Assembly (NCBI GenBank): GCA_028289045.1
Contig: JAQGHB010000005.1
Span: 1-32,438, forward strand
Source: Candidatus Saccharimonadota bacterium
GTDB taxonomy: Bacteria; Patescibacteriota; Saccharimonadia; Saccharimonadales; UBA4665
Length of the DNA stretch: 32,438 nucleotides
Reading direction: 5' to 3'
The notes under the pieces are model-generated. The model did not search any database, was not told the origin of the DNA, and saw nothing but the letters and a program-made list of their open reading frames with translations. Positions 11,906 through 13,630 of this stretch are shown piece by piece (the first letter of the stretch is position 1; every line of letters starts with the position of its first letter). Both the position numbers and the translations under genes were made by a program.

Positions 11906-11923
11906 GTGTAAGAATTCTTACAC
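11906..11923. promoter_or_regulatory. Perfect 18-bp palindrome GTGTAAGAATTCTTACAC
   Basis: Exact inverted repeat in the 11875-12061 intergenic region. Confidence 0.6.
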
Positions 11924-11937
11924 CGCTTATGCTTTTT

Positions 11938-12015
11938 GGGGTGTAAATTAATTGTAGTGCTGACCTGCGAACAAGATTTGCGAGCACTCCAAAACACCCC
12001 CTACGGGGTGTTTTT
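11938..12015 (+). ncRNA. Candidate attenuator/riboswitch-like leader or small RNA ending in a terminator
   Basis: GGGGTGT (11938-11944) can pair with ACACCCC (11994-12000), which otherwise forms the terminator stem with GGGGTGT (12005-12011); internal hairpin AGTGCT..GCGAA-CAAGA-TTTGC..AGCACT (11956-11988). Confidence 0.45.
11991..12015 (+). terminator. Rho-independent terminator upstream of the ABC exporter
   Basis: AAAACACCCC-CTAC-GGGGTGTTTT 10-bp stem, T tract to 12015. Confidence 0.85.
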
Positions 12016-12061
12016 AATTGTATACAAGATACAGCTTTGCGGTTATACTGATGTGTAATAC

Positions 12062-12871
12062 ATGTCTGAGTCAATTATTTCCGCTCAAAACGTCACCAAA
12101 AAATTTGGTGACAACACTGCCGTCGACGGCATCTCTTTTGAAGTCAAAAAAGGCGAGATATTCGCATTTCTGGGTCCTAACGGTGCGGGCAAAAGCACCA
12201 CCATCAAGATGATGACAACCATGCTGCGGCCGACAGACGGCGTTCTGAAGCTGGCTGGTCATGACGTGACCACCGAGCGGGATCACGCCCGCAAGGCTTT
12301 TGGGATTGTTTTTCAAGACCCTAGCCTCGATGAAGAATTATCTGCTTACGAAAATATGGACCTGCACGCCACACTCTATAGCGTTCCCAAGAAAGAGCGA
12401 TCGGCTCGCATTCAAGAGCTGCTGGAGCTGGTTGAACTCTGGGGTCGCAAGGATTCTATGATTAAGACCTTTTCAGGCGGTATGCGCCGGCGCCTGGAAA
12501 TCGCCCGCGGCCTGTTACATGAACCCCGAATTCTCTTTCTGGACGAGCCAACACTCGGGCTCGACACCCAAACTCGTAACCTAATGTGGAACTACGTTAA
12601 AAAACTCAGCCAGGAAAAGGGCATGACGATATTCTTTACCACTCACTATCTGGACGAAGCCGAAGATGTGGCCGAACGCATCGCTATTATCGACCACGGC
12701 AGCATTGTGGCCCGCGGCACCACGGCCGAGCTCACCAAGCAAACCGGTACCAAAACACTCGAAGAAGCATACTTGAAGCTGACGGGCTCCACGATTCGTG
12801 ACGATTCTGACGTTGGCAACAACGATGGCCTAAACGCGCGCCTAGCTCGCCGAAACACTAATTTGAGGTAA
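12062..12871 (+). CDS. ABC transporter ATP-binding protein (DrrA-like)
   Basis: FLGPNGAGKSTTIKMM Walker A, FSGGMRRRLEIARGL signature, ILFLDEPTLGLD Walker B. Confidence 0.95.
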   Translation: MSESIISAQNVTKKFGDNTAVDGISFEVKKGEIFAFLGPNGAGKSTTIKMMTTMLRPTDGVLKLAGHDVTTERDHARKAFGIVFQDPSLDEELSAYENMDLHATLYSVPKKERSARIQELLELVELWGRKDSMIKTFSGGMRRRLEIARGLLHEPRILFLDEPTLGLDTQTRNLMWNYVKKLSQEKGMTIFFTTHYLDEAEDVAERIAIIDHGSIVARGTTAELTKQTGTKTLEEAYLKLTGSTIRDDSDVGNNDGLNARLARRNTNLR

Positions 12872-12877
12872 TCCAGT

Positions 12878-13630
12878 ATGCCATTTGATATCATTTACAC
12901 ATTATGGCTCCGACAAGTTCGCCGCTATACACGCAGCGGTTCGCGTGTTATTGGCACACTTGGGCAGCCAGTACTCCTGCTACTCGCATTAGGTTATGGT
13001 ATCGGCGCTATTTACCGCAAAGCCGGTGAAGGCGATTACCTGCAGTTCTTGGTGCCCGGCATCATTACGCAGACCGTGCTGCTGTCATCAGTATTTTGGG
13101 GCATTATTATTTTACAGGATAAGCGCTTCGGATTTTTGTCCGAACTGCTGGTCGCACCCGTAAAGCGTGTCTGGATACTGCTCGGTAGCACGCTTGGCGG
13201 AGCTACAATCTCAATTATTCAGGGCATGCTGGTGTTTATTATTGCGTTGCTATTTGGTTTTCGGCCAGATGATTGGCTGCTCGTCGGACCGGCCTTCCTG
13301 GTCCTGGTACTCATGAGCCTGGCACTTACCAGTTTCGGCGCTGGTATTGCCTCACTGGTCGATGACTTCCAAGGCTTCCAGAGCATAAACAACTTGCTCG
13401 TTATGCCGTTGTTCTTCCTATCGAGCGCGCTGTATCCGCTCACGAGTGTGCCTATTGGTCTCAAAATCATCAGTACCCTCAATCCGGTTAGCTACATGGT
13501 TGACGCACTGCGCTTCCTGCTAGCCAACCAGTCACACTTCGGCTTTGGCAAAGATCTGATCGTGATGACTCTGACATTTGCAGTGTGTATGGTGTTCGCG
13601 GTCAATCGCTTCAACCGCATCCAGATGTAG
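12878..13630 (+). CDS. ABC-2 type transporter permease (DrrB-like)
   Basis: Six-TM ABC-2 profile, directly follows the ATPase gene; ...SINNLLVMPLFFLSSALYPLTSVP. Confidence 0.92.
   Translation: MPFDIIYTLWLRQVRRYTRSGSRVIGTLGQPVLLLLALGYGIGAIYRKAGEGDYLQFLVPGIITQTVLLSSVFWGIIILQDKRFGFLSELLVAPVKRVWILLGSTLGGATISIIQGMLVFIIALLFGFRPDDWLLVGPAFLVLVLMSLALTSFGAGIASLVDDFQGFQSINNLLVMPLFFLSSALYPLTSVPIGLKIISTLNPVSYMVDALRFLLANQSHFGFGKDLIVMTLTFAVCMVFAVNRFNRIQM

Follow-up and report, generated by a model that had tools for sequence, protein, structure and literature searches.

A conserved, intrinsically terminated element beside an ABC exporter operon in Saccharibacteria is probably a free-standing small RNA gene

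The window, which is the whole 32,438-nt stretch of DNA analyzed here, is contig C35 of a genome of 649 kb with 73% completeness. Its positions 11938-12015 probably represent a free-standing small non-coding RNA gene with its own intrinsic terminator, the product being about 80 nt long here and reaching about 107 nt in relatives. Comparison across related genomes demonstrated a conserved, structured, terminator-ended element that is independent of the neighboring exporter, and from these comparisons we infer three further points: the element acts as a small RNA gene, a promoter of its own drives it in the window, and its bulged stem serves as a recognition element. The predicted transcript is about 78 nt long, with a putative 5' end and a 3' end at the T-run of the terminator. 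The element is flanked by a minus-strand gene for a PGPGW membrane protein and a plus-strand gene for a DrrA-like ABC ATPase, in agreement with the initial annotation, which had placed a terminator between two divergent genes and whose motif coordinates all proved correct to within one base. The relevant features are listed below (DR, read directly from the sequence).

Start at about 11873, minus strand: PGPGW-family membrane protein, divergent from the ABC ATPase
11906-11923: perfect palindrome GTGTAAGAATTCTTACAC, its left half containing the -35-like GTGTAA...
11906-11933, plus strand: likely small RNA promoter, putative in function (-35-like GTGTAA...; -10-like TATGCT at 11928-11933)
11938-12015, plus strand: candidate small RNA gene (eight members, covariation, exact-core pattern search matching members only)
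11938-11944, plus strand: GGGGTGT (DR)
11956-11988, plus strand: conserved bulged hairpin (AGTGCT/AGCACT stem, upper stem TGCGAA/TTTGCG, loop CAAGA)
11956-11961 and 11983-11988, plus strand: lower stem arms AGTGCT and AGCACT (DR)
11962-11965, plus strand: 5'-side bulge GACC, inside the conserved hairpin
11967-11971 and 11977-11981, plus strand: GCGAA and TTTGC (DR)
11991-12015, plus strand: intrinsic (Rho-independent) terminator of the small RNA, kept in all eight members (DR)
11991-12000, 12001-12004 and 12005-12014, plus strand: terminator arm AAAACACCCC, loop CTAC and terminator arm GGGGTGTTTT (DR)
11994-12000, plus strand: ACACCCC, within the 5' arm of the terminator (DR)
12020-12049, plus strand: promoter/operator of the ABC operon (GTATACAAGATACAGC ... 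TATACT; sigma-70-like match at 12021-12049)
12044-12049, plus strand: TATACT (DR)
12062-12871, plus strand: DrrA-type ABC transporter ATPase (PF00005 and TIGR01188 above cut-off)
12878-13630, plus strand: neighboring ABC-2 membrane permease (PF01061)

DNA and covariance-model searches of 93 genomes of one GTDB family revealed eight members of the RNA family in eight genera. The DNA search yielded two intergenic matches covering both hairpin and terminator, aligned over 102 nt at 69% in G025 and over 64 nt at 75% in G091, and a first covariance model built from these two and the window recovered G078, G074, G031, and G055, while the resulting seven-member model added G010. The exact pattern GTGCTGAC-N10..40-GCGAGCAC matched six members and nothing else in the 93 genomes (one match for the reversed control pattern), with G025 and G091 carrying compensated variants of the exact core. 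The element was present in a single copy in the genome of the window and in one copy in each of the six genomes matched by the pattern. A scan of 84,980 species genomes with the exact core gave 75 matches, of which the only one labeled as Saccharibacteria was a known member (contig JAQBRQ010000039.1); the others, most of which came from GC-rich genomes outside this phylum, were taken as chance. Three weak family-level DNA matches (L067, L074, and L076) were rejected, as none had the second stem arm and L074 and L076 lay within coding genes, and the inspected order-level covariance-model matches beyond the eight members were plain terminators.

Across the members, the core comprises GUGCUGACMWGC, a loop, and GCGAGCAC, followed by an A-rich linker and the terminator, and can be generalized as 5'-GUGCY-[GRCM]-WGC-(variable stem + loop)-GCG-RGCRC-3' with a short A-rich linker and a C-rich/G-rich terminator. 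The arms GTGCTGAC and GCGAGCAC were identical in six of the eight genera and compensated in the remaining two, the bulge GAC(A/C) was almost invariant, the upper stem and apical loop varied with compensation, and the leader was variable. Standard pairs accounted for 94% of pair cells in the eight members, and changes on both sides were found in 7 of 20 pairs (reached in 2 of 500 shuffles) and in 12 cells (0 of 500 shuffles), although the alignment was fitted to the covariance model, which favors pair counts somewhat. The covariation score was 0.286, compared with 0.151 in shuffles (none of 500 reached it) and at most 0.143 when the partners were slid. The terminator was also kept with compensatory changes in all eight members, and the element displays the conserved, covarying secondary structure expected of an intrinsically terminated small RNA. 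Folding of a 137-nt stretch of the window gave -38.8 kcal/mol, against -29.7 kcal/mol for dinucleotide shuffles (z = -2.5), which taken alone is modest evidence; the conservation with compensatory changes in eight genera is stronger. A window RNA starting exactly at 11938 was energetically predicted to favor a core-disrupting pairing through GGGG (-29.0 vs -24.8 kcal/mol), and one starting at least one base later folded into the conserved core. A K-turn reading of the bulge was discarded upon inspection, as sheared G-A pairs cannot be placed.

In the initial annotation, the element was read chiefly as a leader attenuator or riboswitch governing the ABC exporter, in which GGGGTGT pairs with the 5' arm of the terminator and thereby blocks termination; under this model, a ligand would act by stabilizing this P1 helix. 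The perfect 7-nt complementarity and two-state geometry in the window, the intrinsic nature of the terminator, and the location of the G078 element, also within about 850 nt upstream of an ABC orthologue, agree with such a mechanism, but it is largely refuted by the evidence below and is now considered very improbable. The ABC ATPase occurred in 45 of the 93 family genomes, and in 9 of its 12 closest orthologs, the window included, GTATACAARRTATAGY was followed after about 10 nt by TRTATAMT, 40-43 nt before the ATG, bearing out the earlier caveat that the TATACT box may give the ABC gene its own downstream promoter. None of the other eight box-carrying orthologs among these 12 had a terminator upstream of the ABC gene. 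Since the ABC promoter (12020-12049) lies entirely 3' of the terminator and eight orthologs keep it without a terminator, the terminator is not part of the ABC leader, and the element does not occupy the riboswitch position between the promoter and coding region of a regulated gene. Furthermore, the match between GGGGTGT and the terminator arm was 7 nt long in the window only, the longest match in other members being 0-5 nt, and forcing the P1 pairing gave a state 6.6 kcal/mol weaker than the terminator state, which is the minimum. No mutually exclusive terminator/antiterminator pairing was therefore conserved, and of the triad and hairpin pairing on which the two-state proposal had depended, the hairpin and terminator are kept in eight genera, whereas the leader GGGGTGT is not. 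Nor was the element associated with one gene function across genomes, with five of the eight members located before rpmG and one standing alone. The GTATACAARRTATAGY box overlaps the ABC promoter and is strongly conserved in nine orthologs; it is possibly the operator of a regulator of the drug-efflux type.

Analysis of genomic context revealed three kinds of neighborhood among the eight members (rpmG, ABC, or neither), as expected of a free-standing unit. In G010, G025, G031, G055, and G074, the element was located upstream of rpmG (ribosomal protein L33), either directly or within about 380 nt. Three of these were 41-58 nt after tRNA-Thr(UGU) and the G025 member followed tRNA-Thr(GGU), giving a tRNA-Thr linkage in at least four of the five, with the contig of G055 ending too close to tell. 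A typical rpmG promoter (TTTACA...TGTTAAWAT) came after the terminator in those rpmG-linked members that were inspected closely. In G091, the element occupied an otherwise empty gap, with a divergent gene on one side and the end of a convergent gene on the other. In G078, it directly followed a same-strand cupin gene, and ChaB-like and MPG-like genes (named by inspection) lay between it and the ABC orthologue. These relatives away from the exporter, next to tRNA-Thr and rpmG or alone, support what had been proposed only as a fallback, namely an independent small RNA of about 75-100 nt.

Such positions also bear on whether the element is only a terminator or insulator that ends upstream or antisense transcription, in the manner of a 3' UTR or tRNA trailer, with an incidental upper stem. 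In G078 and the four members following tRNA-Thr, the element could be a 3' UTR or trailer, and its near-symmetric A/T flanks would permit two-way termination. This explanation nevertheless appears unlikely, because termination would not require a further stem that has an invariant bulge and is kept by compensatory changes, non-members at the tRNA-rpmG site usually have no terminator, and no rightward gene precedes the element in the window and G091. Similarly, the differing genomic locations and the positions at the 3' ends of tRNA-Thr genes in four members might point to a short element of the mobile or repeat type (REP/MITE-like) or to a remnant of tRNA-targeted integration carrying a terminator hairpin, and G025 (L080, 1344-1444) has, immediately before the small RNA, a duplicated 3' end of tRNA-Thr of the kind that such integration leaves. 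However, the single copies in the genomes counted above, the maintenance of the structure by compensatory changes, and the rpmG position common to five members render this origin highly doubtful.

The region upstream of rpmG harbored other candidate RNAs as well. In G037 and G006 (L110 and L115), a different hairpin-plus-terminator RNA, GCTTG...GACGTCAAGC, with a common inner stretch, was found between tRNA-Thr and rpmG and had no Rfam match. A further recurrent element was located upstream of rpmG at L118, L119, L121, L134, L244, L246-L248, L252, L257, and L270; most copies carry TTGCAAGAAG and then a terminator whose loop is TGATCA, and the element had no Rfam match where tested.

With regard to transcription, the gene preceding the element is divergent in the window and in G091, and the RNA would thus need its own promoter there. 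The small RNA of the window would be transcribed from a promoter at about 11906-11933, while the tRNA-Thr-adjacent members may be co-transcribed with the tRNA and then cut free. The 40 nt upstream of the window element, compared without gaps at an equal offset from the core, matched those of G078 at 23 of 40 positions (0 of 2000 shuffles) and those of G025 at 19 of 40 (23 of 2000 shuffles), consistent with a conserved promoter; the hexamers themselves are poor matches to the sigma-70 consensus. Exact copies of the palindrome at this site, (G)TGTAAGAATTCTTACA(C), occurred in only 4 of the 93 family genomes; the genome of the window has two, and the copies are at 11906-11923, G000:C28:3091-3106, G088:C1:301060, G010:C23:51715, and G015:C19:3142. 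At G000:C28 and G088, it is about 80-90 nt upstream of similar ORFs of 27-28 aa (MTTEQW.../MTIEQM...), which suggests a putative operator for some regulator.

In comparison with known systems, the element resembles intrinsically terminated bacterial sRNAs in being a short, free-standing, intergenic, and lineage-restricted gene with a stem-loop body and a 3' intrinsic terminator with a T-run, but its conserved part is a bulged double strand rather than a single-stranded seed, and it comes from a lineage in which sRNAs are little described. The likeness to riboswitch and attenuator platforms is confined to the window copy, in which the 5' arm of the terminator has a potential pairing strand upstream; the element differs from them in that this strand is not conserved, the downstream genes vary, and the ABC promoter is 3' of the terminator. 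Like 6S RNA (RF00013) and the bacterial small SRP RNA (RF00169), the element is small, structured, and single copy, but it differs from both in size, bulge, and distribution, and either identity was rejected as it matched neither model in cmscan. Moreover, its presence in only 8 of the 93 family genomes, unlike the distribution of a housekeeping RNA, indicates that it is not one. In a separate survey of 14 Saccharibacterial genomes, no small SRP RNA (RF00169) was detected at E up to 0.001, with 11 of 14 control genomes positive, and four genomes showed weak, sub-threshold 6S-like matches of equal length. The initial annotation had recognized no known riboswitch class and had proposed an Rfam scan. 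The Rfam 15 scan (cmscan) of the window returned only a distant tRNA and no family at the gathering threshold for the element, and when the loci of the members were scanned with E values up to 5 allowed, nothing convincing was matched, so that the element indeed matches no Rfam family.

As for its function, the small RNA most likely acts in trans. Because the near-invariant part is paired and carries a 4-nt bulge while the leader and apical loop vary, binding of the bulged stem to a protein or a structured RNA partner is more likely than antisense pairing. In addition, the terminator would incidentally protect the ABC promoter from read-through. The RNA is confined to part of one family and most members of that family lack it, a distribution that argues for an accessory regulator. 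More speculatively, and with considerable doubt, it could represent a new class of structured trans-acting RNA in Patescibacteria that would bind a dedicated protein or the ribosome through its invariant bulged stem (GUGCUGACM / GCGAGCAC) and whose usual tRNA-Thr-rpmG home would reflect a role tied to translation.

Saccharibacteria are ultra-small, host-dependent bacteria with reduced genomes, and few regulatory RNAs have, to our knowledge, been described in them; no description of a small RNA in Saccharibacteria was found in the open-access full-text literature. Intrinsically terminated bacterial small RNAs are a known kind, and the present family appears to be new. The exporter is not under riboswitch control, which removes a false lead, and the covariation-supported RNA family in eight genera provides a concrete, testable locus in these bacteria.
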